Origin: Fennellomyces sp. T-0311
Lineage: Eukaryota > Mucoromycota > Mucoromycetes > Mucorales > Lichtheimiaceae
DNA length: 64,000 nucleotides
Assembly: GCA_025266875.1 (NCBI GenBank)
Contig: JALLLT010000077.1
Coordinates: 1 to 64,000 of the forward strand
Direction of reading: 5' to 3'
Shown: piece by piece, positions 1,970 to 64,000 of the stretch
Layout of the letters: every line of letters starts with the position of its first letter
Position numbering within the stretch: position 1 is the first letter of the stretch
Notes under the pieces: model-generated
Database searches by the model: none
What the model saw: only the letters and a program-made list of their open reading frames with translations
Told to the model about the DNA's origin: nothing
Made by a program: the position numbers and the translations under genes

Positions 1970-4900
1970 ACTCCGCCTACGCGTTTCCAAATTTTCACGG
2001 ATGAGCACTGGGAATTTCTGCCCAGATAGGTCAAAAGAAAGGCTGTGGCTTAACAGCAGGTGGCTTATGCCAGGAGCGGTCCCTTGGATGGCGGGACACA
2101 CAGATGGTAACCCTTCAACCATCCATCACAACTTAATACACGAGTAAAAAGCACAAAAAAAAGCAGAAAATCATGGCAAAAGCTGCATATTTATTTATCT
2201 TGTCACATAAATACCATGTACACTTGCCTTAAATTAGACAGCTGACATTAAAACAGGCAGTTGACATTCCTATATAACACTTAGCATGTAACAACACTTA
2301 CATTGTTCAATTGAGGGACTTGCACAATAGACCGCTTAGTATTCGAGTTCTGAGAAGTCGCGGCGTATGAATACGTGTATAGCTCGTGTAATATAATAAA
2401 TAAACAATGATTTGTTAAAGTGTATAATGAAAAGAGATAAGAAAAGTATATAGTGAAAAGAATCAAGAAAGTCTATAACGAAACAAAAAAATGGAAGCAC
2501 AAAAAGTAAAAAAAAATAAAGATGATAAAGAAAAGTAAGTCTATAAAGGATAATACTGAATGTACGGATGGACACCACGCGAGTTCCTTGAGCGGATATT
2601 CTCGTTGCGGTGTTGACGAACTCTTCTGACATATTCTTCAGTGTCGCCACGTAGAAAGGCATCGTCGAATGTTCGTCGCTGGTTCGGTGGCAGCATCATC
2701 CGATAGCTTGCTACTTCTTCTTGTAGCTGAAGGCGTGTCTCATTTAATTGCTGCATTAATTGTTGATGCCGTTGATATGTTTGCAGCAAACTATCTTCCG
2801 ATGTACCCAAACGGGTCCACAAATCAGTCTCTTCATCGTCAATGTCGGCATCTACGTCTAAAGCATCTTCAACCAGTCCGTCGTCGTCGTCATCGTCGTC
2901 GTCGTCATCGATCACTATGATCTCATGCTCTTCGTCCACAGTAACGTGACCAGGCAAAGGAGGCAAATTATCCCCTTCCATTTGAACGCCACTAACCGAT
3001 AGGATATCAGCTTCTTGAGTAGCATTGAAATCCGTTAGTGCGTCTATAAATAATGCACTCAGTACTTTGAATATCACTAATGTTAACCTATACTACAAAA
3101 GCCACGCACCATCTTCGAGAGGGCGAGCAGCATTTGTAGGTACATCGTCTACTGCTGTCAGAATATCGTCTTCATCGCCCCGAGGCCAAGAAAGAGGGGA
3201 AAGTCGCATTAGCCTAAAGGGATATACTTGGATCTACGTGTTAAACACGTTAGAAAGCAGATTTTTTTCATGTAGCTATAGGCGCACATACGTCTTCTTC
3301 AACGTGCACATAAGGCGCAGTGTCTTTGCGCTGGATATAAACATCCAGTGCACTAAAGAGACTCCATGATTGTCTAACTGCATCATTGTACCGTTTGACA
3401 AGGTGCTTGCAGAGCATGAATCTGCTATTAATGAATGCAGGACAACCACAAGTAAAATCCTCTATCGAGGGCATATACCGTGCATCTGCATTGGGTTCCT
3501 CTCCTCCATTGCGTCGTCGAAGAGTTTGCGTCAAAGTTTTCCATGACCTAGCAAACTCTTTCTCCCACTCCAATGCCTGACGGCGATTCTGAATCTTGAG
3601 CTGAAAGTTTGCTCTCATCAGTGGAAGTTGTTGGTTGATGATTATATACATCAGCAGGTCGAGTCGTGGACGAGGGAAGTTCAAAAGAAAGTCCCTCTTT
3701 AGCACTCGCCATTGTGCTTCTATCATCATCGTGGTTTTCGCCATCGGGATGTTGTCAGGGCGACTGCTGCGAGCCCATCGATCCCACCACACACGAGCGT
3801 ACCAGCAGTTGTACATATACGCCCACACATCAGGAAGATTGTGCTGAACGCAAAAGCGATATAACTCGCGACCAGCACGCTGGCGAAGTTGATCTGCATT
3901 TTCACGGCCAACTAAGTCTAATATTAACAATGTATCTTATACCTACTCGATTCAACGGTTACAACATACCACGTTGAAGTGGAATATGCGGGTGCATATG
4001 ATAGTGCTTTCGCACCATGGCTACAATTTGGTCGCGATGGTCTGCATTCGGGCAAATTTTTCCACTGCGGTCTGATGGTGGAACAAAGCGCAAAGAAACG
4101 AATGGGAATTGCTCGCGAGCATCTGCTGCATTGTAGCGCGGATCAACTCTTTTGTCTTCACCCAACCGTAGCTTTACTGCTCGTTGAATATGCCAGAGAC
4201 ATAGGCGTAGTGGATGACGACCAAACACAGTTTCAATTGCATTGATTTGGCCGCGATCCTTGTCCGAAAAGATGAAGTCCGGGGCAAATCCATGAGTCTG
4301 TAGACTACGGAAAAAGCGTCGTATCATCTCCTGGCGTGAAGGTGCTCTTTGGTGTTCTGGAACGACGCCATCATTAACACCAAGGAACATATAGGCGATG
4401 GGGAATCCACATCCATTAAAGTTGGCAACAACGCCGAAGAGCTCGTATCCCATTCTATTCGTCTTATATGTCGAATCGACATGGAATTCGCGTACCAGAG
4501 GGGATGCACACGCCGAAACAAAAAACTCGGTGACAAAACCGAAACCAACAACACCACCATAATTCCGATAAAGAATCTGTTTTTTATTCATCATAAATAT
4601 GTATGAACTCTTTATTGTTGACTACCATTTTTGTTGCATAGTAATCATCGCAAAGAAAGCTATGGTCATGCACATATGGTTATCTTACACATACCTTGCA
4701 GACACCATTGGTGCCTCTATCAACGTGCATTATGGCCGAAGTAAGTTGATTGTCGTGGAGTTTATAACGGTTTTCAACTTGACGCGCCCATGAAGCATAG
4801 ACCTACAACATCATCATCGTACCAACATCATACCACCACTTGTTACATACCTGTGGTTGTGTAACAGTACCAGCAGCAGTCGGAAACTGAGCAACAATGC

Positions 4901-7739: not shown

Positions 7740-8374
7740 AATAATAAAACATAAGATACCAAAAAAATGTGGGGATGGTATAAAGATTCAGGATTGAGAG
7801 CAACGCTATCGAGACAATAAAAGGCTGGCTTCGGGTGGATCCAGAAGTCCTTATTGTGGTATATCTTGCTGCTCCCTTTGTTGACCAAAGCATCGCGTTG
7901 CTCGCGAAGGTATTTTGCCACAACACCCAAATCGTCAAGCTCTAGCACCAGCTCTGGCTCTTGATCAGAGCTTTCTTCGTTAACTGAAACCGGTTCGTTA
8001 ATATCATCGGATGTAGAACATCCTTGAGTTGGTTCTGGACTTTCAATATGACGTATCATATCGCCAACGTTTGTAGTGTTATTGGTATCAGGCTGTTCTT
8101 GATCCTGCTACCGGTAATGTCCGCGTGCTTTAGCACAATGAAAACTGAAAAAATGCTATGTATATACCTCTAAAACACGTTCATGTTCAATCGAATCAGC
8201 ATTACCCTCATTGACGTTGACATTGGTACTTGCATTGTCAGTGACATTGCTTGCGATGGATGGAGTTCTAGTGCTGGCACGCTGTTGAGTGAAAAAGCCA
8301 AGACACTGTGCACCAGGTAATGTTTGATTAGGCTTGCGCCTGGGAATGCCTCTTCCTTTCTTTTGGTTAGCCAT
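7740..8374 (-). pseudogene. 5' relic of the exonuclease-transposase family
   Basis: Two open stretches on the minus strand (8374-8156, starting MANQKKGRGIPRRKPNQT; then about 8090-7740) match, in order, the first two exons of the large gene at 13634-18757. Each has a short basic AT-hook-like start, then an acidic linker, then a conserved block. Here that block is KYLREQRDALVNKG...DFWIHPKPAF...YHPHIFL; there it is QYLLEIQKDIPKKG...TFWVEPPEPF...YYPRVFL. The relic stops just before the zinc-binding residues and meets the LINE end, so the rest has been lost. It shows that the large gene is a repeated family, as expected of a transposon. Identity is modest, so the copies are not recent duplicates. 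Confidence 0.65.
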
Positions 8375-9060
8375 ATTTTATGAATGTAAACTATTTGACA
8401 CGAAACAATTAAGGGTGCCTTATATAATGCAGATATTCTAAAGTCTGTGCACACACCTAGGTCTCAGCCTGACGCCAGCTCATTGACACTTATTTCCATG
8501 GATCTTATTGGCTCAATCCATTGATTGGCTCTGCTAGTTGAATTTTTACTGGCCTAGTCTATTCCCGCTCATACAACGTTGGATAGTTTTAACCTCAACA
8601 TGGGTTTTTATTGGCCCTGGGACCCCTGGGACATTTTAGGCCCACCTTTTTTAGCGGGGTTAAAGCTCCTGAGGTAGAGCCCCAGCCAACGATATTAAAA
8701 GTTAATAACGGCTCTCTGGTGCATACTAGAGAGGTTGAGGTGACTTTCATACATTCTTTTGCGCTAATAAAATGTACAAAAAAATGTTAGTCGTTACGAA
8801 AAAGGAAAATGTGAATTCCGAACAGTGCAAACTCACATTTTATTTTACATTGATTGTAAAGAAAAAAAAGGGATTTACATTAATCTTTTGTCCAATGACA
8901 ATTAAGACTAAACTACCCAGTTTTGATCTACTGCGAATCCACTGGATTACATATTTTTGACAGATGCATCAATTAATAAAAGCATCACGGAACATGTACT
9001 TCCTTTTTTTCGTTGCTTCTTTGAACTTTAGTAATAATAGCACAACCCATTGCACCAAAC
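8375..9060. other. Intergenic stretch, no gene seen
   Basis: Upstream regions of the relic (left) and of Harbinger 1 (right). ATTGGC/GCCAAT boxes occur near 8510-8620, which could be old promoter elements. A run of C/G pairs with CCCTGGG repeats lies near 8616-8640. I found no convincing reading frame and could not place the Harbinger 1 terminal repeat. Confidence 0.4.
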
Positions 9061-12059: not shown

Positions 12060-13429
12060 GAAAGAAAGAAAATTTAATTTCTGTATAGATCAACTTTTTT
12101 GCTGTGAATTATTCCATTGTTAGATAATGCATGAATTTTAATCATCCTGGTCAGAGTAGCAAAAGAGTGCTTCAACTTTCCAAAAACTCTCAAAGAATGC
12201 CACCCCCTGCATATTTAGTGAAAGCTACACAAGGCTACTTAATTTTGCTAGTCGAAAATCAGTGCAAAAAGAATGTATGTAAGTCCCCCCAACCTCTCTA
12301 CTATATTACAGTTTCAACATGTAATATTGTAAGTAAGACGGGGATGTCTCGCGTTCTGGCACCTTGTGTTGCCCTTTAATAGCGTGTATGAGGGTAAAGT
12401 TATTGGCAAAGTGGCTGTTGCCTTCGAAGATATCTTTTCGTATTTTTCCACTCTTACCTAGCTCCTCTACATGCAACACATTACGTGTAAGTCATTCTAA
12501 TCAGTCACTGGAAGGTACATAGTTATGATTGGGAAGCACAAATAAGAAGAAACGGATCATAACTATTTCCTACTGGTCCCCAGTTAATAGTTATGACATT
12601 TATACGTACTGCTTGATAACACAAAAGGTACAGATACTGGCACTACATCATTTAAGCAGCATAAGTCACCTTCAAGATGATGCTTCTTCTCAGGTTTTAC
12701 GTATGCGTATAGAGAGAGAGCTGATATCCATATATATCTGTAGAGTATTATCTCAGACATACAGCTTTTTTTCATTTTAAAAGTACATCGTACGTACATA
12801 ACACATAATACGTAGGTACCAAATACGTCAACAAATCTATATAGGTACGTAGACTACAATTCAATGTATTCCAGGATTCAGCTAGCTAAAGCATGATATC
12901 GTTTGTCCATAATACATAGAAGCACTTAAGGTAAGTAGCCTATAACTATAATACCTTTTAGGGACATACACCATAGCCTGGGAATGCATATCTTAAATAC
13001 GTTGTAACGAAAATTCTCTGCTACTCTTATCCGTTGATACTACCGTTCATGTCCCCTTTTCCGCATATACATGAGCTCTGTACATGTTGTCTATTCTATT
13101 ATATGGTGCATTTGTACCATCGTTATCTTCTTCCGCAGTCGGATCTTTTACGAATTGCACTTCCAAACTTTTATCATATTGTGCTTCCACTACAATCAGT
13201 TTTATCTATAGTCAGATTACTCGAAGCTTTATCACAGAAACATATAAATACCACAAGGGTATCGAATGAAATAAGACAGTTAACTTGACCTCAATTATCT
13301 TGACCATACCTTGTCAACCTCAAGCTAGGAGCATATATATTCTTTTGGTTAACTCGCCCTTTCTATTTCTCTCATTTCAACTTATATCGTGAACCCTGAT
13401 TTACACAGATCTCTTATGTCACAAACAAT
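12060..13429. other. Long non-coding stretch with short inverted motifs
   Basis: No convincing gene. ATAGTTATGA occurs at about 12520, inverted near 12558, and direct again near 12588. Palindromic TACGTA/GTACGTAC clusters lie at 12787-12855. The right end of Harbinger 1 should lie in the first few hundred bases, but I could not identify its terminal repeat. Confidence 0.35.
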
Positions 13430-13513
13430 TTCGGCCCGGGTAATATAGGTGTGGCCGAATTTTTTATTTTTTTTTATTTTTGCTAGAGCAGCCCTTCGGG
13501 CTGCTCTAGCCAA
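13429..13513. other. Two consecutive hairpins downstream of the large exonuclease-transposase gene
   Basis: Hairpin 1: TTCGGCC at about 13430, 16 bases later GGCCGAA. Hairpin 2, about 20 bases on: GCTAGAGCAGCCC, loop TTC, GGGCTGCTCTAGC. This is a perfect 13-bp stem that extends through flanking T/A runs with one mismatch. They lie about 120-200 bases past the stop of the minus-strand gene at 13634, so they fall in its 3' region or at the end of the transposon. The role could be transcript processing or part of a terminal structure; neither is shown. Confidence 0.6.
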
Positions 13514-13633
13514 AATTAATACATTTTAAGATTAATATAAAGTAGTTTTTGAGATATATCGAGTAAATTTATATATAGATTGTGCTTAAATCCTTCATGC
13601 ATCTACGATGTATGTACTACGAAGTTTACAACT

Positions 13634-14758
13634 TCACGTATTTGTACAATATTTATGTCCACCGCTGCCTGGGCATCCAAACTGGTGACATTTTCCACAT
13701 CGTCGCCCCTTTGTTGGTAGATCAGATAAGAAACTAGATTTCTTCTTTCTAGATCTTGAACGAGAAGATGAAGGTGTCACTGATGGTAACGGCGCTAATG
13801 GTGGCAGCAACGTTGCTATAGATGCGATATTAGGTATGACTTGTCCAAGTTCCTCTCTGGGTGACGGATTGTTCTCCATATGCAAAGGAGGTTCCATAGC
13901 ATTGGGAGGTGTAGATATCGGCCGAAGTTGTTGAAGAAAAGCGTGTAAATATGGAAGAGTGTTAGGCTGTATGCTACGGAGTTGTTTTGATGCTTGATTT
14001 TGTCCACTGCTTGAGGGTACAGCAGATGATAGAGATGACTCTGGAGCTGCTTCATAGCATGGTACCTTTAGTGGAGATGGCTGTTCCGGATCCTGTGCCT
14101 TTCGCTTTCTACTCGATGCAAAGAGCTGGGCATCGATTCTGTCAATCGCCTGTTGGTTATTCTTATTCGTATCACTGGCGTTTTCAAAGTCGCTCCAATC
14201 GGTATATTTTGCACGAATGAATTCCGGCGTTTTATAGAAAATTGTCTTCCCGTCGACGTGTGATGACCAAAGCTTCGCAAGAGTTGTAAAATTCACATGC
14301 TTAGTTGTGCGATAGTCGGGAAAATGCTTGGTCAATAGTTCGATGAATTTTGAATGCTCTGCTTGGATGTGAATCGGAAGGATTGCATGGGCTGCATTTT
14401 GTCTTTGACTAATGAATCGGTACTGTGCTCCTGTTTCTTGAAGTGTTGACCCAGTTATTGTGATGAGTGTAGCAAGATCTAGAGAAGTTGGTTGGTCGAG
14501 TGGCTTCATTTTGTCGTTTGCTTCAGGAGTTTCTACTGCGGCCGGTAAAATGTTCAACTCGTTCATGATACGTGTAGGCAGCTGCGATATACCAAATGTC
14601 TCTCCGGAAGATCCCATATGTATCGCGTGCTTATGAACACCAGCATGATCGTAACTGAATGACATCCCAAAAGACGCCCGTAAATCTTGAATATGCTGTG
14701 TTAGCCAAGGCTCGTAGTGACCTTTATGCACACGTCCATATCAATTCATAGTGCCAAC
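13634..14758 (-). CDS. C-terminal exon of the giant transposase, zinc knuckle
   Basis: This exon starts with the motif that follows the Glu box (VGTMN, stop, YGRVHKGHYEPWL) and continues open to 13634. It encodes about 370 residues: an alpha-helical first half, a Pro/Ser-rich low-complexity middle, a basic SRSRSRKKK stretch that could be a nuclear localisation signal, and the ending RRCGKCHQFGCPG...HKYC. The last segment has the spacing of a retroviral-type CCHC knuckle variant and may bind nucleic acid. One TGA at 14741-14743 separates it from the previous exon; otherwise it is uninterrupted over more than 1 kb. Confidence 0.65.
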
Positions 14759-14824
14759 CTTTATCAGAATATACAGTTGGTGATATATATCATAGGTACG
14801 CAACAATTTTAACGAGACATATCT

Positions 14825-15190
14825 CTACTTTTTACTTACATCGATATTATGTCGAAGTCTGTAATCAGCTAGTGCGGCATCTGCTAGCTGTGGACTGGCA
14901 CCAAAGGAGCCAAACTTGCGGATTATATTCTGGTGTATTCCTCCTTCTAAGGAATTCGTGCCACGGCAACAACGATAAAGGGGTAATCCATCCTTATCTT
15001 TCCCCATCAAGTAATAGAACGAGATACCGGGAGGATCAGATACATATCCTTGCCGTATATTCTTGAGAACATTCTTTGACTGTCTCCATGCATCATTATC
15101 GAACAGAACTCTCCCAGTCCTAGCACACTTCATTGGGCCGTATGTTTCGAAAAGATCTTTGACAACTAGAAACAGTGTTTCAGCTTCAGG
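14825..15190 (-). CDS. Exon with the predicted third catalytic acid (Glu) of the giant transposase
   Basis: The frame reads TIPEAETLFLVVKDLFETYG, then RCCRGTNSLEGGIHQNI (Glu codon 14945-14947) and ALADYRLRHNIDV, followed by a good GTAAGT donor. TNSLEGG followed by a helix resembles the Glu box of the MULE transposases elsewhere in this window (RVEGAHADLKRD at 62.4 kb; MIEAQWRVLKRD in MULE 1). I therefore assign it as the end of the DDE triad. The upstream exon (15264-15661) encodes an acidic linker and VTWDEMMLKNPRWVLRRVRR after a TGA at 15329. Confidence 0.6.
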   Translation of the reverse strand, partial: PEAETLFLVVKDLFETYGPMKCARTGRVLFDNDAWRQSKNVLKNIRQGYVSDPPGISFYYLMGKDKDGLPLYRCCRGTNSLEGGIHQNIIRKFGSFGASPQLADAALADYRLRHNIDVSKK

Positions 15191-15263
15191 AATAGTGCCT
15201 ACCCGAAATGAGCATATTTGTAAGTATACATCCTTCATGGCCTGGTAAATTGAGTATAGATAC

Positions 15264-15661
15264 TAACGGCGAACTCGACGAAGGACCCATCGAGGATTTT
15301 TTAACATCATTTCATCCCAAGTTACTCCTCACTTATGAAGCACTTCTTCGACGTTTTTCTTGTCACTTTCATCTGGAATAAACAGTGCATCTCTGAGCTT
15401 GCGACAGAAAGTTTTTGCCAGGCCGTGCTTTCTAGGTACTCTGATCATATCCATTAGATGAAAGGCATCTTTGAGTATTCTAGAGCGTATCAGTCCTTGG
15501 GAACCACTGATTGAATTAAGTTGCGCTTGTCCAAATATGGCACTATTTGAGTCAACTTCAGTTGCAGGATTGGACGTGGTATTGGATCCTTCTTCTATGT
15601 CGGTGGTATCGCTATCTGTATCAGCATCGCGATAACTGGTTTCATTTTCATCTGTATACAT
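15264..15661 (-). CDS. Acidic linker exon of the giant transposase (one nonsense codon)
   Basis: The open frame has an Asp/Glu/Thr-rich start (TDSDTTDIEEGSNTTSN), then a basic segment IRSRILKDAFHLMDMIRVPRKHG...CRKLRDALF. It reaches TGA at 15329-15331 and stays open beyond it (GVTWDEMMLKNPRWVLRRVRR) to a GTTAGT donor near 15264. Position and phase fit between the exonuclease exon and the Glu-box exon. No separate function recognised. Confidence 0.5.
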
Positions 15662-15739
15662 GTATAATTGACAGATTTTGTGGTTAGACTAAACCAGTAT
15701 ATTCACGATCATTTCTGGGATAAAGCAATACTTACCGGA

Positions 15740-17575
15740 TTCGCCAATATCATCACTCAACGTAGTATTTTCTTGGGGCGTTGATAAACTTGGTTGCTCA
15801 GTACAATGCTGGATTATTTCGACTGGCTTATATGTGAACAGATCGGATAGCTTGACAATAGTCTTAAACGGAACTTGACCAAGCGTAGCAAGTGATTCAC
15901 CTAACGCATTTGTGGCACCAGGTAGCACTATCTGTTTGACTGTCATGACTGCTCGGTTCTTTGTGACCTTTTTCCCTTGGAAGTGCGCTGGTTGTTTTTC
16001 CAGTTCACCATATGCAACAGCGAATGTTGCCGAGCCGGGATTATATGATACATGTGATCCTAGCATTATCCTCCAGTTAATAACAACGTACAGCAAGCCA
16101 AACATGACAAACGAGTACGATAGAAATTTACCTTCTATACGTCGTGTTAGCTGCTTGCCAATAACTCCATATTTCTCCATTGTCTGGTAAGCAAGTAGTC
16201 CAGCCAAGGCATCTAATGCAGCATAACGCTTTTGTTCATCGGATAAGCTGGCACTGTCCCAGTCACTAGATCGTATATCTTCGGGCTTTGGCAAGCTACG
16301 ATGCAGCACTACTACACAAATTTTTGCAAGGCCATTGCGTGCATCCTTGATTGCACCTTGACGCTTACAGTAAGCTGCAAGATCCAAACCGCCTTTATAT
16401 CCAGTGCCAAAGTCTCTCTGAATCTTCTTTAAGTCCCCTTCAACGCTTTTCCCAACCTTTACAACAAGTTCGCTTTCCAGTAGCTGACGGAGCGAATCGG
16501 GTAGTTGGTTTAAGTGAGAAACACAATATATGTCGACTTGGTCATCGTAAGCGACTTGGATCATTGCCAGTTTGCCCTGTCCGTTCGGTGTTCTGCTATA
16601 GGGCCACTCGCAATCAAAGCCAACGACAATTGAGCGTTCTACTACATCACCGGTCGCTGTCGTTACTTTTGTCCTCTGGAGAATTGCTTTGGCGCTTGTA
16701 TCAATATCACTGGGGTCGGACAGGCAATGTATAACGTCGTCTGAAATTTCCAAAGGCGGCAAATCGCTGTATGCTCTACCTTCTGTATCATCGAGTTGCA
16801 GAGGTCGAATATCCTTCGTTAATGACGGGAACGCAGCAATAAGAGTGTTCTTGTCTCCAGACGGGTTGTCTGTGAAGAAGATGGCAGGCTCTTCATGATT
16901 ATACAGCTGATAGGCGTTTCGCATACCATCGAATGCATGTTGTAGATGAGACAGAGATTTGGTTGGTACGAGAAGCTGGAGTCGTACTTCTTCGTATTCG
17001 TTACATACGGTGTAAAGAGCTGAAAAAATTGGAGAGCCGTTGATCATTCCCACGTGCTTAATCAGCTTGAATGAGTGATCTCCTTTCAGAAACTTTCCAC
17101 CAAGAACCATCATCTGCTTGTCGATAAGTGCACGTATGCTGTCAATGTATGTCGTGTAAAAGCTTCGTAGGTACTGGGCTGAGGGAACATATCCAGCATA
17201 ACATGTCTTATCTGAGAAAGATGAAAATTCTGCATACGCTGAAGCTTTTTCGAAATGCTGATCAATGGTCAATTGCTCGTCTCTACGATACTGTATAGCC
17301 GTCAGATACTGAAGTTCTAGACGGCTGTGGCGTAATGTGTGCATCTCTTGAAGTATGCTTTGGAAGCGCTTAGGCCCTACAGAGTTTTGGATGCAGCTTC
17401 GTAGAAGGTCACCGGCGTTCTTTGACAAAGCATTGCGATGGGTGGTATACGCTGGATATTGGCATTGTAAGAAGTGTGGCAGCTGGCGAATGACCCTTTC
17501 GTTATGGCAGCCAATAGTAGCATTGCATTTTTTACATTGGTATCGACATCCCACAATATAAAAGCAGCTACACAT
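15740..17575 (-). CDS. Main exon(s): zinc block, DDE first half, 3'-5' exonuclease
   Basis: The frame is open from the acceptor at about 17577 for more than 600 codons; a 60-nt intron near 16070-16130 may be removed. It begins CFYIVGCRYQCKKC, completing the zinc-binding block. Numbering from 17575, transposase acids are D166 (codon 17078-17080, GDHSFK) and D236 (16868-16870, TDNPSGD). The exonuclease acids D321 and E323 (GFDCEW), D381 (VEGDLKKI), Y451 and D455 (RYAALDAL) make a full DEDDy set. WRN/RNase D-like exonucleases remove 3' nucleotides using two metal ions. No stop interrupts the exon, so its coding capacity has been retained longer than that of the flanking exons. Confidence 0.8.
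16163..16645 (-). other. DEDDy 3'-5' exonuclease domain (WRN/RNase D type)
   Basis: About 160 residues. Exo I is SIVVGFDCEW, then AMIQVAYDD (core strand). Exo II is VGKSVEGDLKKIQRDFG, then GGLDLAAYCKRQG and GLAKICVVVL. Exo III is LSDEQKRYAALDAL. All four carboxylates and the exo III Tyr are present. Fold assignment is by motif order; close family placement (WRN-like versus RNase D-like) would need an alignment. Confidence 0.85.
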
Positions 17576-17996
17576 GAAAAGGTAACATCAGCCAAGTTCT
17601 AAAATATCTATAATATATACATATATCATAACGGATACTCGTCTATTGAATCGAGCATCGATCGCATCGTCTTTGAAATATATAGCACAAAATATATAAC
17701 ATAATATCTGGTTCATATATTTATTACACACTGCCTAGTCGTCTTATACTAAGTAAACTAGAGAAAAAGGATACACATGTGACAATTTATTATGATCGAA
17801 ACGAATACGTATGTGAGCTGGAACCACAATTACCCGTTTATATCATCCTGTCAATGTACACTAACTCATTTTTTTTGGATACTTGGTACTTATTCACCGT
17901 GCTTATGATTATACTCAATACGATACACTCGATGCCGATACAACGAGACGAAAACCGAATGATAGCTGTACACGTTGTCATGATTACGAAACGCTT

Positions 17997-18570
17997 ACCT
18001 ATCAACATCGACAGCCCTGCGTGTCTTACCATAGCCATGGCGCTTGAGTCCTCCGTCACATCCTTTCCTTTCGCATTTCAAATCGAAAAGTAGATGGGGA
18101 AGCCACAAAAATACGCGAGGATAGTATAAGAGAGTAGGCTCCAGCTTTTCGCGCAAAACAAAAAAAGGTTCAGGAGGTTCAACCCAGAAAGTTTTCTGCT
18201 TGTACGCTTCGGGTAGACCTTTTTTCGGAATATCCTTTTGTATCTCCAGTAGATACTGGCGCACAACGGTGTCGATGACCTTGTCCTCGTTCTCTTTGCT
18301 CTTTTCAAAGTCTATTATCCCATTTTCATCCTCAGGGGAGAGACCGTTGTCATCATCTTCTTCATCACCCATGTAGCTGTCAAGTTCGTCTATAATGACA
18401 TCGTCCTCTGCTGCTGGCCTTTCCGAATCCAACATCATGTCACGCAACGAGGCTAGCGTTTCATCCTCGGAAACGTGCTGTTGGCTCTCGGCTTTGTCAG
18501 CTTCCGTGAGGATGAGTGGCGTAAATCCAGGATTTTGATTCTCTTGGATTTCAGAAATCATTTCTTCTAA
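17997..18570 (-). CDS. Second exon of the giant transposase, acidic linker and zinc half-site
   Basis: Reads EEMISEIQENQNPGF, a long acidic stretch, then VVRQYLLEIQKDIPKKG, KTFWVEPPEPFF, YYPRVFLWLPHLLF and LKCERKGCDGGLKRHGYGK, ending at a GTAAGC donor near 17995. The two Cys of CERKGC pair in spacing with the CKKC of the next exon. A long gap of about 420 nt (17577-17995) follows; it may be one unusually long intron or hide a small exon. The relic at 7740-8374 is homologous to this exon. Confidence 0.65.
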
Positions 18571-18619
18571 ATTTTCAGCCTTAAGTATAAAATTATGCCC
18601 AGATTACGATTGCTCTACC

Positions 18620-18757
18620 GGTTTGCTTGCCATCGTTACTGAAAAATGCTGTCGTAGTCGCACGTCCATACGGAAGAATTGTTTGATTTTTCGGAAGTTG
18701 TTTTTTGGGACGACCGCGACCGCGTGCCTCGGCTTTTGGTTCGTTCGTATTTGTCAT
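18620..18757 (-). CDS. First exon of the giant transposase, AT-hook
   Basis: ATG at 18755-18757 begins MTNTNEPKAEARGRGRPKKQ. GRGRPKK is a canonical AT-hook core, a minor-groove DNA-binding motif. A GTAGAG donor after GKQT and a TTTAG acceptor give a 52-nt intron that joins in frame to the next exon. The relic copy starts with a comparable basic segment (KKGRGIPRRKP). This start is preferred because no in-frame ATG precedes it and the upstream sequence is AT-rich. Confidence 0.6.
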
Positions 18758-19204
18758 TTGGTATTATTTTTTTATGATCGGTGTCAAAAAGAAAAAAACT
18801 ACGCCAAGCGATAAATTCTTGACACGGTACGTATATCCGAAAGTCCGACAACACTGAACTTATCCGGGTCATTCATTGGCCAGGTAAAGGGGACTTAACA
18901 GAGATTTTTATTGGCTGTCGCAGACACCCTTATGTTATCTGTGCCACAATTTCCTATTTCAACAACATACTTTAATGTAGTACTTTCATTTATCTTAGGA
19001 ATACTTGGCTTAGTATTATACTATGCTTTCATTTGATCCTTGTATTTTGCTTCAACATATTATCGTACGTATCGATTGCATATCTTTGGAAACTGTTTAT
19101 TTGCTACATAAGCGTAATCGTATAATTCAAAAGTAAAAAGCTGCGTGTCCGTAGCAGTACTGATAGCTGTATGGGCATGACTGCCTGACGTCCCCTAAAT
19201 ACTT

Positions 19205-39399: not shown

Positions 39400-40640
39400 T
39401 TACTTCAAAAATAATACCGTATATATATATCTTTTTTTACTGTACAGCGCTTTCCAAAATAAAAACCTCGAGCGTTTACTCATAGGATCTTACTAATGTG
39501 ATATCATCCGCAGCTTAATACCTTTTTCAAGTGATGATACGAGTAAAGACACGCACTTTTCAGTTACTAAATACGAGAGGTATGCCGATATCGCTTGCAT
39601 AATACATGTACTACATGTACATTCCTTTTTCGATGAAGTGGATTTCCTTTTTCTCTTTTGACCTCAGTACGGAGCATCGTTTCGTTCCTCCGTACTTCTC
39701 GCCCAATTTGGTTCCATCGGCCAACCCCGCTTTGGAAATTTTTCTTCGGTGTCTGAAAAACCTTTCTAAAAACAGCTCTACCGGAAGAGTTTGGTGGATG
39801 CTTGAGAACGACTATAGTTTGATGATATAGTTGTACTTTCAAAATAACTTAGCTATAATAACTTGTAATATATTATATCACAAACATTGAATTTGGTAGC
39901 CATGAACCACGATCATAAGTTAGGCATGCCTGAATCATAATTGCATTTTATAATAAAGTGCATGTTTGGGATACTGGTATGTGTTGTATCCTAACATACC
40001 AGTCATCCATTGTCTACATACCTTTCTATCTCAGCCTTTGTTACATCCATTCCTTTATTTTGACATCAACAACTGCACAGTTATTTATAAATATAGGCAT
40101 CAACTCATGACAAAAACATGTATGGTCTGTCTATTATTACCGATTGAACAGCTCGACTAATTGATACAAGTGTTTTAAAAGCAATATGAAGTACTTTAGC
40201 TGTTGTTACCCAAGTTCAAATTGTTGTGAAAACCAAGAGTCATCATTATTATCATTAGCTTCGTCATGTATGCCAAGCTACAATAAAGGCAAATATATAA
40301 ATGCTCTTTAAAATGCTTGTTATAAAATGTGATCAAGGTTCAGGTATATCAGAACCTCAATCAGGGTTTGGATTCAACCTAATCTAGGATCTGGTAAATC
40401 AGGGTTTTGGACATAACATATATAAAGCAGAATTTCTAGATACAGGGATCCTTATCACTGTACTTTCATACAAAGGTTACACCTTCAAGCTTTTATCAAC
40501 ATTGCCTAATGTACAGCAACGTATCAATTGTAAGCATACTATGGTCTGTGCTGTTATAGTTGGATAACGTCTGTAATGGATACACCATTACACAATTATT
40601 ACTTTAATGTACATTTTTTCATTTAACAGTGTATATTTTG
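39400..40640. other. Intergenic, no gene seen
   Basis: AT-rich. TGTTGTATCCTAACATACC at 39982 resembles the end of a family X LTR but lacks a partner end. A weak open stretch at 39842-39567 has no recognised family. Ends of Harbinger 3 (left) and of the Merlin element (right) should lie here but were not identified. Confidence 0.35.
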
Positions 40641-46853: not shown

Positions 46854-49800
46854 TAGCACCATAGGAGCCGCTGAAATTTCCCCAGAGGCACAGGAAGGAT
46901 AATAATTTACCCGGGTGATTTTATTATAGGAAAATCGTGTAGGCTCTAGTTCTCATAATGAAAAGTTAAAAGCACAATTTCATAATGCAGAATATTATAA
47001 TATGATATACGTAAGTTATTATATGTTGTACAAAGAGAAAAAGGTGGATTTTGTAAGATAAAAGTGATAAAGAAAATAGGATTTGATAGTCAGACATATA
47101 AGAATTTTATGCATGCCGTGTATTTTGATTGGTTTCAGTGTAAGTTGTTGGCATCGTTCTCCTGCGACGATATTGAATAACGTCTGAAAGATATGCATCA
47201 ACTCTATTATCGTCTCGTGTTTGTTGAAAACGACGGTATTGTTCCTCAGAAACATAGGATTGATAAGCAGTGGCGGATGCGTTAAACAACTCCTCTGTTT
47301 CTTCAAGTTGCTGGATGAGTTGGCGTCGACGTTGCCGCTGTGCTTGCATTTGCAATTCCAATCGCAAACGTTCGCGTTCCAAATCCGGAAGGATATCGTT
47401 TCTATTGTCCAGTACTGCTGGAGTTGCATCATCGGTAATGCTTGCCGGACTATTGTCGTCCTGTTGCTCTTCATCATCCGAACTGTCTATTATAATGGCA
47501 GTCGATGCGGTAGTAGCAGTAGGAGCAGGCGCGGCAATGGTGAACGTTGGGCTGGCAGTAGTTGGGGGAACAGTGGCTCTAAGCACAAGCGGGCGGGGTG
47601 CATTCTCAGATATCGTCATATCTCTGAAAAAATTCACATTTCTCTGATACCGAAAAACAGGCGATGTCATTAATATGTATGTACAATCGATGTCATATCC
47701 GTATCTTCTTTACCCGTTCTAACCGTACGTATGGTGCTGTGATTTGCCGAATAACAAAGTACTGGCCGGCCGAAATAAACCTATGTGGTTCCCCATTTTC
47801 ATCTCTACTGTTAACCACAAGGTGCTTGCAAAGTAGGAAGCGATTGCGCACAAAATAAGGACAGCCGCAGGTCCATGTTTCAACTGACGTTCGGTAGTCG
47901 TCGCGGAAGTTGATGCTCATCCCTCCTGCCATTCTTCCTTGGCCGTATAATTCGTTCCAGTTGCTAACAAAATCATAGTGCCATTGGGTGGGAATACGGA
48001 GGCGAACCATCTGTTGGTTGAATTTTTTGACTAACATGGGAACATGCTTATCCAAAATGATGTAAAAAAGCATGTCCAAGCGAGAGCGAGGATGTCTGGC
48101 CAAGTAGTTGCGCTTTAAAACACTCCAATGAGCTTCAACGAACATCGTAGTTCGTCCAGCTGGGATAAAATCTGGTACAATACTACGCGCCCATTGATGC
48201 CATACTTCCCCTTTATACCAATTGGTGTATAGATAGACCCATGCGTCGATCAAGTTATTATCGCGACAATAGTCATAAATCTCCCTGCCGGCATACTGGT
48301 ATATAGCAGCGGCGTCGAGTCGCTGAGAACCTACATTAAGGAAATACGTCATACTATTTGAGCATGATAAAATAATAACAAGCCCTGAATTGACTGTGTA
48401 TGTTTCATAAAGAGCTTACCATGTGGGATCAATGTGTGCATATTATAATGCTTGGTCATAAGAGCTTCAATAGCTTTACGATGCCCTTGGTTGGCCATAA
48501 CTGCATTTCCACCACGGCCACCAATAGATGGTGTAAAGTCATCACCAACGAAGGGGAAATCACGATGGGCTATGGTCCAGTGGTAAGGAGGGGGGTTGGC
48601 CGGACTTCTTTGCATCAATTTGCGCTGAACCTGATGCTGGATATGCCAAAGGCAGAGACGTACATATGCATCAGTAAAGACACCTTCAATTGCATTTAGC
48701 TGGGCCTTGTCTTTATCCGAGAACATAAACACAGGTTGAAAGCCAAAGTCTTGCAAGATGCCGAAGAACTCTTTAAGAGTGTTTGTCTTTGTAAGCGGTG
48801 GTGCTTCATTGAATGATGTATAGACCATGTACGCAATTGGAAAGCCCACACCACCAGCATTTGCAATGATGGAAAATAGCTCACAGTCAGCACGGTTGGT
48901 TTTGAATGTCGAGTCAATAAAGTACTCTGTGACATATTCACATTCGACCAACGGTGCAAAAAAAGGTGTGGTAAGCCCAAGAGCAATGGCATGATCATCA
49001 TGTTTCCAGTACACCTAATATTTATTCATACTTGAATAAGAAACTTTATACTATCTACACCTATTTCTAGCTTAAAAAGCAAAAACTAGGCTTGTTATTA
49101 GTAGATGACTTTACACATACCTCATTGTAACCGTTGTGACGATATCTTTCTATGAGCAAACGTGTGGATCTCATTTGATCTTCATCTAAGCGGTAGTTTG
49201 CCTTGAAAGACTCACTCCACCAGTAGTACACTTGCATTGGCGTAACATCAGCCTCCACGAATTGCCTTGTGATCTCAGTAAACAGTTGCGGGGCGGTGGT
49301 ATGACCATCTGTTCTTGAGGCAATGTGGTCTCGTATCTCCATAGGGACCGGCACACGGATGGTATCGCTTTCCGAGTCGATGCGTTCATGCTCGCAATGC
49401 ATGATTTTGAGCTTAACACATCCAAGGTTCCGTTTGATTGTCCCATGCACACAACCTTTGCAGTCAAACTGGGGAAGCCGAACATTCCTACGTTGGACTT
49501 GTGAATGGTCTAGCTGATTTTGTATCTGCTTTGATCTATGACAGTATGCAGTGAACGAGATATCAAATTCCAATCCTGGATCCGCTACATTCTTACGAAC
49601 ATAGGTATAGAGATCACAGGATTGAACCTCGTCGATGATCATATCAATAAGGTCATGGTCTTCCACTGACTCCATATGTGGTTGAATGCAGATGTAGCCA
49701 TCGAATGAGTAGTCCTATCAATGTCATCCATATAAATAAACACATGAATACGAATTTTATTAATACATACGAATCCGCCATTGAACTGGATAGGATACAC

Positions 49801-60219: not shown

Positions 60220-61018
60220 GTATGTACATTTGATATGAAGGTCAAGAAGTATCGTTAGTTATTAACCATTCTTTAGTAGATCATCTAGTATTGCTATCTA
60301 TATATCAACGTTACATGCTTCGTTTACTCCATTTTCTGTTATGTGTGCTCTTCAGTTCGACGAGGCAAAAGGATTATAATAAAGCGTAACATATTGGTTT
60401 ATATACCAGCACCTATAGGAGTATAAAACAGATGATGGACACTAGAACTACGTGTATAGCCACTTGGTATTATTCTGTGTTTTATGTACACTTTGCGGCT
60501 ATGTGAACTAGCGTAGATTCACTTTCTTTCATGCCCTGTTATTCACCGTCATCTCTGGCGTTTTCCTTTCCCAGTTAACTCACGTGAATTTTTGTTCTGG
60601 TATTCCAATGTCATATGCCGTCTTTTCATTCTCGGTAAATTTTCCATTTCTACATACAAAGTACAAAACACCAAAATACCATATTCTACATAATTTCACG
60701 CTCTGGATTTTCCGCGGTGAACGTTCATCACTTTTTTTTTTCGAAGACAGACGATGTTCCCAATTTGGAAGAGCATTCTGAAAAATGGATTTTTCAGAAC
60801 GCCCTAAACTCTCTAATATGTATAACTTTAACGAATGTAGACTTTAAATATCACTGAAAAACTTTAAACAGGAACGACACGCTTTTGGCAATATTATAAC
60901 GCTTAGCACAATACTATAGATATAAGTGACAGGAATATAGAAAAAGTACCCGTATTAGAAAAATAAAGCCGCCCTCTGGTCTTATCACTTCACAAGTTTT
61001 CACTAATCTCTTAACGCA
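60220..61018. other. Intergenic between Tnp2 element C and the FAR1-type MULE
   Basis: No gene seen. AT-rich. The right end of element C and the left end of the MULE should lie here. I found no matching terminal repeats, and the MULE right end is beyond the window. Confidence 0.35.
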
Positions 61019-64000
61019 ATGTCGAAATCTACCAACGCAATCCCTGAAGAACTTCATAAGACTTGGAATAGTCATACCAAAGCCAAGAACGAGATCCGCG
61101 AATGGGCTAGACAGCAGAAAATATTTTTGTCAACTTTTAAAAGTACTCTCAGTGGCGAGAAAAGAAAAGTTTGCCTTGCGTGCAAGCACTATGGGGAGCC
61201 CAGGAACACAGAAGTGTATGGGGAGCCAACTCCGACTGGGAAGATCTTTGTCGCTGACGACAATGGCAAGGTTACCAAGTCCAGCGGCAAGGAAGCCGAG
61301 CGTCGTAACAAGGAATCGCAGTGCATCGGATGCCCGTTTACGATAACACTTCGGCCAGTGACTAAAGACAGCCAACAGTGGCGTATCGTGTCCTATTACG
61401 ATGGTCCTCATAATCACGAGCTCGCACAGGAAGAATCGACCTATCCAGGGTTTCGTAACTTTGGCGATGATAACGACATTGTTGTCAGTATGATAAAGGG
61501 ACACGCAACAAACCCTACCATTATGTCGTTTCTTGCCAGCAAGAACAAAATCGTTACAGCTAAAGACGTTACAAGATTACGCCAGATGGTATTTAACAAC
61601 GATCCGGACCACAAAATGTTCAAATTTATCAGCAAGCTCCAAGAAAAGGAGTATGTGGTCGAATGGCTGGCTTCGCAGGAAGGAGATGTGCGATTTTTGC
61701 GCTCTATTTTCTTTGCGCACAAGTCAGCTATTGATCTTGCACGTCAGTTTCCGGAATCCATCTTGATGGATGCGACATACAAGACGAACAAGCACCGTAT
61801 GCCATTCGTGAATGTTGTTGGCACTGGTAACGTTGGCTATCCGGCATTGAAAACATTTGCCATCGCTGGTGGATGGTTATCCGAGGAGAACAACACTAGC
61901 TACGAGTGGTTTGTCGGTAGACTTAGAGCTATCATTTGGCCATCCACCCAGCCTGCATTGCCGAAGGTGTTTGTCACGGACAGTGAATCTGCGCTGACAA
62001 GAGCATTGGACATCGTTTTCCCCAGCTCGACGAAACTCCTATGCCAGATTCACATACGTCATAACTTCAAGCAAAAGTTGCAAGGGTTATTCGACGTTAA
62101 AACGGATTACGAAGACCTGGAAAAGGGTTTGAACTTCTTGATGGCTGACGAGTATAACGACAAGGTCACTGGAATGCGCGTAGTTTCGAACACGGATCTA
62201 CAAAAGAAAGGAGAGGCAATGTATGCAACTGCTGCTCAGATGGCTAAAAAGCCTGATGTAGTAAACGCGTACTTGAAACAGTGGGTGGCTCGATGATGAA
62301 TATTAACAACTATCACAAGTTTATTCCAAAAAATGTTGATTTTATGCTTTAATCATAGAAAACGCGAACACGAGCAAAAGTAGGTGGGACCCTTTCTTGC
62401 AAGTGTTATGCACTTGGGGAATACCAGTACCAATAGGGTTGAAGGAGCGCATGCTGACCTGAAACGCGATATTAAATCCTTAAACGGTGGCCTCTTTCTT
62501 GTTTTTGAAAAAATTGACGAGCACTATCGAGTGAAGGTAACCGCTTATAGCACATAGGTTTCAGGTGAATACTTATAACATTGGCTAGAATTTATCCTGG
62601 AAGCGGCAGGTCGATCTCGAGCATCTCAGTGTCAATTCCTATTTTCCTGATGGAGTGAAAGAGCGTCTATCTGCATTAGAGCGCAATATATCGAAGTTCG
62701 CGTTCTATGCTATCCGTCAAGAACTTAAGCATAAGAATATCTTAAAGACCGACCATTGCCAATGCGCTTTAAAAGCTCATTACCGTATCCCTTGTTGTCA
62801 CATGCTGCCAAAAGAAGGTGTAATTCCCTTGAACTTAGTTCCTAGGCGCTGGCATCTTTTCTCTGAGAAAACTGCACCTATAGGTAATGTTAAGAATAGT
62901 AATCGAAGGTAATTATTGCTCACATACCGGCATGGTGTAGAAGAAGCGACTGAAAGTGGCGAAAGCAATGTTCTTGCAATCACAGAGCCTTACAGTGCTC
63001 CTAGCTTGGAAGACCAAATTGATGCTGAGATTGCGCGGATCACCAGCTTGTCATACAAGTATTCAGATCACCAACAGCAAACAACCCTTTTACGCCGTCT
63101 ACAGGCCATCAGCGACGATCTTTTTGTTGACCTTGCACATCTCCAGCAACCAAAATCGATAGAGAAAAAAGGCAGATATCAGCAGGCGTCAAAAGGCAGT
63201 AAGCGAGATATGATTGCCCTAGAGTTTCAGGAGGTACGAAGCAACAAGAAAGCAAAGACAGGAATAGGGCGCGAAGCAGCTGAAATTTGGTATATATGAT
63301 CATATATCTGCATACGAAGTTTATTCTTACATAATTATATGCTATATAGGGAAGGAAAACGCGAACTGGGTAGTAGTGCTCGACCAGAAACTCCTTCTGC
63401 TCTCATGCCATCTGGTCCACGCTTACGGCTTGTGCCTTATCTTGACCTAGTGACTCCTAACATCCCTCGATCTGCTGTTGAACTCGTTCACAATCCCGTT
63501 GGTGATGGTAACTGTGGTTTCCGCGCCCTTGCTTTTGCACTCTTTGGTGATGAGAATCTCTATCCCGAAGTTAAGCAAGCAATGTTGGAGCAATTTCACC
63601 ACCTCGTTGCAGAACCAGATTACATCGAGTATCCGGTCCTACGCCTCGCAAAAATACTTGATCCAGCTGACAACGAATGGTTCATGTATCCATATTGCGC
63701 TCAAATTGCTGCTGATACATTCAATGTCCCAGTAGCATTTTATGGCATCCAGTCACACCTTTTTCTCCCATACCACACTATTCCTGAATTTGCACGTCAA
63801 ACTCATCCAATTGTGCTGCAACTTCGCGGTGATCATATAATTCTGGTCCAAATCAAGAAGAATGCCAAAATCCATTAGCCAGAGGTTACACCTGAGCGCT
63901 GTGGAATTGTCACACTCGATATACAGAACGACCCATGGTATCCTCTTTTCGCCAGCTCGTTCGAACGAACAGCTGTGCCTTATACGCCATTTCCCCCACC
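61019..64000 (+). pseudogene. FAR1-type MULE transposase with C-terminal OTU protease domain (runs off the right edge)
   Basis: 61019-62296 (MSKSTNAIPEELHKTWNSHT) has a FAR1/WRKY-like finger (CLACKHYG...CPFTI...GPHNHEL). The MULE core follows, with Asp in SILMDATYKTNKH, Asp in VFVTDSESALTRAL and the LLCQIHIRHNF box. It ends in TGA at 62294-62296 after AYLKQWVAR. Later exons continue: about 62400-62535 (NRVEGAHADLKRDI, Glu), 62615-62911 (SWIM-like CQCALKAHYRIPCCHML), 62916-63299, and 63345-63875 with an OTU cysteine-protease domain (NPVGDGNCGFRALAFAL, catalytic Cys; LRGDHIILVQI, His). A TAG at 63876-63878 is followed by open sequence to the window end. OTU proteases cleave ubiquitin; a role for the transposon is unknown. 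Exons after 62296 are inferred to belong to the same gene by order. Confidence 0.78.
63345..63878 (+). CDS. OTU-like cysteine protease domain of the FAR1-MULE
   Basis: About 175 residues. GDGNCGFRALAFALFGDE contains the Asp-Gly-Asn-Cys box with the catalytic Cys. The helix EVKQAMLEQFHHLV and the block DNEWFMYPYCAQIAADTFNV follow. The terminal strand LRGDHIILVQI carries the expected His. These are the standard OTU landmarks in the right order, so a deubiquitinase-like fold is well supported; activity is not. The preceding exon ends with a splice donor near 63290 and this one begins after TATATAG at about 63348. Confidence 0.8.
   Translation, partial: YREGKRELGSSARPETPSALMPSGPRLRLVPYLDLVTPNIPRSAVELVHNPVGDGNCGFRALAFALFGDENLYPEVKQAMLEQFHHLVAEPDYIEYPVLRLAKILDPADNEWFMYPYCAQIAADTFNVPVAFYGIQSHLFLPYHTIPEFARQTHPIVLQLRGDHIILVQIKKNAKIH

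Follow-up and report, generated by a model that had tools for sequence, protein, structure and literature searches.

The window analyzed here, a 64,000-nucleotide stretch of Fennellomyces sp. T-0311 (contig JALLLT010000077.1, positions 1–64,000), contains on its minus strand a gene (18757 to 13634) in which the catalytic motifs of a DDE (Asp-Asp-Glu) transposase are combined with a complete 3′–5′ exonuclease. We interpret this gene, with a probability of roughly 0.8, as belonging to a dead copy of a cut-and-paste DDE transposon family that carries a WRN-type DEDDy exonuclease inserted in the transposase core, between the helix after the second catalytic aspartate (D2) and the strand of a DxxH motif. 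That the gene is part of a transposon is well supported.

Position of the exonuclease among the transposase motifs

The motifs follow one another on the minus strand in the order first aspartate (D1, in GDHSFK; codon 17078–17080), D2 (in the FTDN of FTDNPSGD; codon 16868–16870), DEDDy exonuclease (about 16172–16630), DxxH (in ILKDAFHLMD; Asp codon 15467–15469, His codon 15458–15460), and final glutamate (in RGTNSLEGG; codon 14944–14946). GDHSFK, FTDNPSGD, and the whole exonuclease share one 632-codon open frame (15692–17587). RGTNSLEGG lies two exons downstream of this frame, ∼150 residues past ILKDAFHLMD. A first-pass annotation made from the sequence alone had proposed a transposase with an exonuclease among its catalytic residues; GDHSFK, FTDNPSGD, the exonuclease residues D321, E323, D381, Y451, and D455 (counted from 17575), and RGTNSLEGG were all recovered at the places and on the strand given there. 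The exonuclease does lie between catalytic residues, but its site is before DxxH and not, as had been supposed, just before the final glutamate.

The inserted domain matches the Pfam model PF01612 (DNA_pol_A_exo1; expectation value (E) 5.7e-15), and its best match in the PDB is to chains of the WRN exonuclease (E 2.4e-21 for the single sequence and 2.4e-33 for a family profile over the inserted domain). Like WRN, the family has an exonuclease with five catalytic residues, whereas it possesses no helicase, and the domain is embedded in a transposase.

Averaged Chou-Fasman propensities, a crude method, place three strands, a helix, a strand (FFTD), and a helix that ends in PSL ahead of the exonuclease; a short strand containing DxxH follows it. 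Within the limits of such propensities, this order agrees with that of the RNase H core (β1-β2-β3-α-β4-α/β5). Judged from the sequence, the exonuclease would sit in an RNase H-like core after strand 4 and its following helix and before strand 5; D1, D2, and the final glutamate are predicted to converge in a single such fold.

The distance from D2 to DxxH amounts to about 290–440 residues (293 at locus L019, 415 in the database protein P0005, and 439 in the model of the window copy). In hAT and MULE transposases, the [C/D]xxH motif follows within a few dozen residues of D2, and the usual insertion comes after that motif. A MULE copy in the window (61007–62293) has 21 residues between D2 and the cysteine of [C/D]xxH, as counted by eye. 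Because the D2–DxxH spacing is far longer here, the insertion site seems unlike the one used in hAT and MULE elements.

The fusion of transposase and exonuclease is found both in uninterrupted frames and in database proteins. At locus L027, a motif search of one uninterrupted 790-codon frame finds D2, DxxH, the final glutamate, and two of the exonuclease motifs; alignment adds D1 and the rest of the exonuclease residues. The proteins P0005, P0011, P0033, and P0037 each contain both aspartates, the five exonuclease residues, and the final glutamate in a single protein. The aligned coding segments at L016, L019, L025, and L026 are free of stops (divided into two overlapping frames in L026). A separate, neighboring exonuclease gene is ruled out by the single open frames.

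Gene model of the window copy

The splice model comprises six exons, all on the minus strand, and 1,468 codons. In its numbering, the transposase residues are D399 (D1), D469 (D2), D908–H911 (DxxH), and E1059, and the exonuclease residues are D554, E556, D614, Y684, and D688. Exon 1 (18619..18757) provides the start codon and an AT-hook-like motif (RGRGRPKK), identified by eye. Exon 2 (17999..18566) encodes an acidic stretch and the first half of a DUF6729 zinc block (PF20499; E 7.9e-6, 26.1 bits, just below the curated cut-off of 27), and exon 3 (15736..17567) encodes its second half (PF20499; E 2.9e-8), followed by D1, D2, and the complete exonuclease. Exon 4 (15268..15651) contributes an acidic linker and DxxH. 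Exon 5 (14840..15198), which shows 55–76% identity to sister copies in unsplit matches, encodes a region predicted to be mostly helical and the final glutamate. Exon 6 (13634..14758) encodes the C-terminal region with a Cys-rich knuckle at its end, again seen by eye. The AT-hook, the knuckle, and the split zinc block of the first-pass annotation are all accounted for, the last being DUF6729 split across two exons.

The frame is maintained through all five introns of the model, apart from in-frame TGA codons at 15329–15331 (exon 4) and 14741–14743 (exon 6); because of these two codons we consider the window copy dead. A 66-nucleotide in-frame stretch within exon 3, noted by eye, may be a sixth intron.

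Element ends, copies, and empty sites

The gene is enclosed in a complete transposon copy of 5,513 bp (13433..18945, minus strand) that has a terminal repeat at each end and is flanked by a perfect 8-bp duplication. The target-site duplication at the 5′ end of the gene (18946..18953) reads GAAATTGT in gene orientation and is identical to the one at the 3′ end (13425..13432). The terminal inverted repeat at the 5′ end (18925..18945, minus strand; GGCACAGATAACATAAGGGTG) matches the ends of sister elements and the other end (13433..13453, minus strand; complement starting GGCCCGGGTAATATAGGTG) imperfectly. Imperfect GG...CC terminal repeats are common to the window element and nine sister elements.

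Two further features are seen close to the ends. A perfect 13-bp inverted repeat with a 3-base loop (13482–13510) lies near the 3′ terminal repeat and is followed on the gene strand by an A-rich stretch, noted by eye, that is possibly part of the end structure. A CCAATAA/CCAATGA-like motif, also found by eye, recurs immediately internal to the terminal repeats, both in the window element and in several sister elements, and is perhaps a candidate subterminal binding site.

The 45.6-Mb genome holds at least 72 matches to the 632-codon exon, and 20 of the matching places were taken with their flanks for comparison. The copies form several subfamilies; some are about 97–99% identical over about 5 kb with sharp divergence at both ends, and near-identical copies stand in different flanks (99.0% over 5,109 bp; 97.8% over 5,020 bp). 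When the 20 loci were scanned for GGY...RCC ends with near-matching 8-bp duplications, eight credible complete elements emerged (L010, L011, L013, L014, L016, L017, L019, and L025); hits in L009 and L028 were judged to be chance, and ten other loci gave no hit. A ninth complete relative, L026, was recognized from its alignment ends. All ten elements, including that of the window, have perfect 8-bp duplications. For seven of them (L010, L011, L013, L014, L019, L025, and L026), alignment gave the ends independently of the duplication, whereas L016 and L017 were found solely by the scan, so that their ends and duplications are not independent evidence.

We matched the joined flanks of four elements, with one copy of the duplication, to uninterrupted loci of the genome and found related empty sites for three. 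Those for L010 cover 312/312 bases at 92–97% in three places and bases 1–286 in a fourth; those for L014 run from about base 69–83 to 312 at 93–96% in nine places, with others at 85–95%; and those for L013 extend to base 194 in two places. These sites support the element ends as drawn. The family is thus mobile, as the first-pass annotation had suggested. Its terminal repeats and 8-bp duplications show this, as do related empty sites and copies that are nearly identical yet differently flanked. The search for full-length copies that the annotation had recommended has yielded nine further complete elements.

That annotation had also pointed to a second, truncated copy at 7.7–8.4 kb. The window does hold a truncated relative there, a 5′ fragment (about 7758..8646, minus strand) that retains its terminal repeat on the gene's 5′ side, but the fragment belongs to a different subfamily, of the L017/L024 type (the complete L017 element is 91.7% identical to it over 913 aligned bases).

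The target of the L010 insertion is itself a repeated, apparently coding sequence, whose uninterrupted copies (C149:56863–57174 and C136:47519–47830) are the empty sites. An uninterrupted copy of the L014 target repeat (95%) lies in the window at 39583–39815 on the minus strand. A genome search with the part around the final glutamate, aimed at copies without an exonuclease, gave 91 matches, and such copies may exist in this genome.

Conservation of the catalytic residues

Among 21 genome loci, counted where alignable, D1 is retained in 19/20, D2 in 20/21, and the final glutamate in 18/18, with exceptions for D1 in L018, D2 in L024, and the DxxH aspartate in L022. The five exonuclease residues are found in 21/21 (D), 19/21 (E), 21/21 (D), 20/20 (Y), and 20/20 (D). 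Similar counts come from 124 aligned database proteins, summed over three groups at ungapped positions: D1 106/109, D2 111/113, DxxH aspartate 108/109 and histidine 103/105, and final glutamate 91/93.

The ratio of nonsynonymous to synonymous substitution rates (dN/dS) against L028 is 0.14 for the D1–D2 part, 0.18 for the exonuclease, and 0.07 for the final glutamate part in L025, and 0.13, 0.29, and 0.07, respectively, in L026. Close pairs are noisy: the exonuclease ratio is near or above 1 in four of them and 0.24–0.38 in four others, and three more distant pairs are saturated for it.

Distribution in fungi and loss of the exonuclease site

We found 139 related proteins in Mucorales, in Agaricomycetes, and on contigs that are probably metagenomes; each protein search was limited in its scoring to the approximately 8,000 candidates with the most shared words. 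Members from Mucorales come from Circinella, Mucor, Apophysomyces, Zychaea, and Parasitella, and further members from Mycena, Marasmius, Lentinula, Hymenopellis, and Phellopilus, which we take to be Agaricomycetes, among others. Removal of 15 proteins shorter than 600 residues left 124 for alignment, and a midpoint-rooted tree of 109 tips was built from 537 columns confined to the transposase parts.

Intact exonucleases stand on both sides of the root of this tree, and the site is intact in Mucorales and in several Agaricomycete branches. Two clades have lost it. In a Mycena clade of six proteins, the first exonuclease aspartate is replaced by serine and the last by asparagine where aligned (first aspartate 0/5 ungapped, D1 5/5). 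In a large Agaricales clade, which comprises 53 tree tips and 61 of the 124 aligned proteins (grouped mainly by search of origin), the first aspartate is found in 0/56 ungapped cases and the last in 1/54 (P0131), with D1 in 51/52. Outside both clades, the counts are 49/51 for the first and 46/49 for the last aspartate, and the site is also damaged in a few other proteins, such as P0125, P0130, and P0132. A weak match to the exonuclease model persists in 11 of the 33 proteins scanned from the Agaricales set.

Both clades retain the DDE residues, indicating that the strand-transfer residues are generally constrained and that the exonuclease site is dispensable in some lines. From the pattern on the tree, the site is probably ancestral.

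Proposed role of the exonuclease

The AT-hook and the DUF6729 zinc block probably bind the element ends. The DDE core (D1, D2, DxxH, and the final glutamate) would then excise the element at its GG...CC ends and join it to the target with an 8-bp stagger, which we infer from the products observed, that is, the ends and the duplications. The exonuclease was presumably catalytic in origin, since Mucorales and several Agaricomycete branches conserve its five residues. Its substrates may be 3′ ends that arise during transposition. Those of the donor flank or of the gap in the target are the likeliest, given that complete copies have exact ends of their own. The end processing suggested by the first-pass annotation is a putative function: the exact ends make trimming of the transposon's own 3′ joining ends unlikely, and two clades keep the domain without its active site. 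Candidate tasks are donor-flank trimming, removal of 3′ overhangs, and gap repair, with DNA holding in some lineages. Where the active site was lost, the domain probably persists in the transposase to hold DNA or to support its structure.

Beyond the window copy, we lean toward the view that the elements form a superfamily-level fungal DDE group, that the core was interrupted between D2 and the DxxH strand by a working WRN-type exonuclease in an ancestor shared by the Mucorales and Agaricomycete elements, that both enzymes work on the same synapsed ends, and that some lineages later turned the nuclease into a dead scaffold. Less probably, the main function of the exonuclease fold is structural or lies in binding DNA, as with the helical domains inserted in other transposases, and its nuclease activity has no part in transposition. 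Such a role would agree with the exact element ends and with the clades that keep the domain and the DDE residues without the active site, but it does not fit well with the conservation of the five residues outside these clades, in Mucorales and Agaricomycetes alike, or with the exonuclease dN/dS of 0.18–0.29 against L028.

Several findings weigh against a mobile DDE element with a functional exonuclease insertion. The exonuclease glutamate is a lysine in 2/21 genome loci (L011 and L023), the frame of L026 breaks near the exonuclease end, and the exonuclease dN/dS is near or above 1 in the pairs L025/L026, L010/L011, window/L009, and L015/L016, which differ by few changes. The two Agaricales clades without the site mean that catalysis is not needed everywhere. 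P0022 and P0023 (Apophysomyces ossiformis) contain D1, D2, and the final glutamate with 0 and 10 residues in the exonuclease region; they are possibly annotation errors, or natural exonuclease-less versions. L022, defined by alignment, has only 6/8 matching flank bases, and the joined flanks of L025 gave no empty site. No significant match to a Pfam transposase was found in five pieces of the window and in 7, 35, and 33 proteins (some scanned twice), and a profile comparison with the genome's own MULE and KDZ copies (profiles of 2–5 MULE and 12 KDZ open frames) was weak, with a probability of at most 6.6%.

The family offers a natural fusion of a strand-transfer enzyme with an end-trimming enzyme, in natural site-intact and site-lost versions, which makes the management of their own ends by transposons, as opposed to host repair, directly testable.

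Relation to known transposases and exonuclease-bearing elements

The nearest Pfam models are an ISL3 zinc ribbon (E 0.059 in 1/35 proteins) and MULE (PF10551; E 0.14–0.15 in 2/35, over the D1–D2 stretch), and neither matched among the 33 other proteins. The KDZ model PF18758 matched no scanned member, and the hAT models no scanned sequence, at E up to 1. Both the KDZ and the MULE model work in this genome, as seen from 90 matches to the former and 150 scored to the latter. With a core profile that lacked the exonuclease columns, a search of 834 open frames of the DNA examined detected no significant relative beyond the family among the matches listed, which did not include those below 1e-10. 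The best scores were 0.73 (core, L033) and 0.31 (D1–D2 part, L044), both at loci from the KDZ search, and a match at 0.022 in L024 is that locus's own family copy.

The 8-bp duplication is shared with hAT elements. KDZ elements are likewise fungal DNA transposons, with the difference that PF18758 is unmatched in the window family. Both hAT and Mutator transposases have the motif order D...D...[C/D]xxH...E, and MULEs share with the family the [C/D]xxH–E order; MULE duplications measure 9–11 bp, in contrast to the 8 bp observed here, and the very weak PF10551 match over D1–D2 is not significant. Kolobok elements duplicate TTAA, whereas the 8-bp duplications of the family vary in sequence. Zisupton also makes 8-bp duplications (PMC12730594).

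On these grounds, we consider it doubtful that the family is a diverged member of an 8-bp-duplication superfamily (hAT, P, or KDZ/Zisupton) or of a Mutator-like group that captured an exonuclease. The duplication length, the motif order, and the weak MULE match would suit such an origin; the GG...CC ends would not, and no transposase model comes closer than E 0.059 although the KDZ and MULE models work in the genome.

Exonucleases on mobile elements are already known. KolobokD, a DDD/E DNA transposon of animals, encodes a TREX/ERI1-like 3′–5′ exonuclease, which its authors suggest degrades DNA intermediates from the 3′ end; it is of the DEDDh type, in contrast to the DEDDy type of the window family, and no statement was found that it interrupts the transposase core (PMC9587614). 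Rotifer Terminons and open reading frame 3 (ORF3) of rotifer long terminal repeat (LTR) elements carry DEDDy exonucleases as well, but these are retroelements, and the exonuclease does not belong to a DDE transposase (PMC6431247, PMC5718144). In the open-licence literature, which does not cover Repbase, we found no paper with DUF6729 or PF20499, no description of the family, in line with the first-pass annotation, and no precedent for an exonuclease inside a DDE transposase core. As far as searched, this position is apparently new.

Of the window's own MULE-like sequences, open frames matching PF10551 lie at 3962–4621 (minus strand), 48352–49014 (minus strand), and 61007–62293 (plus strand). 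A number of the KDZ matches (L030–L044) contain stops.

Likely identity of DUF6729 proteins

Databanks name the relatives "hypothetical protein," "3′-5′ exonuclease," or "DUF6729 domain-containing," and these names, together with a single-copy DUF6729-only open frame at L029, are what a duplicated host gene family would have in its favor, but such a family is contradicted by the terminal repeats, the 8-bp duplications, and the near-identical copies in different flanks, and is ruled out by the related empty sites of L010, L014, and L013. The DUF6729-plus-exonuclease proteins of many fungal genomes thereby gain a likely identity as transposases. The L029 frame (3210–4406, minus strand; 398 codons) gives the strongest DUF6729 match of the genome (66.7 bits), with no exonuclease or DDE motif seen; its next best genome match is 40% identical, and it may be a domesticated end-binding domain.

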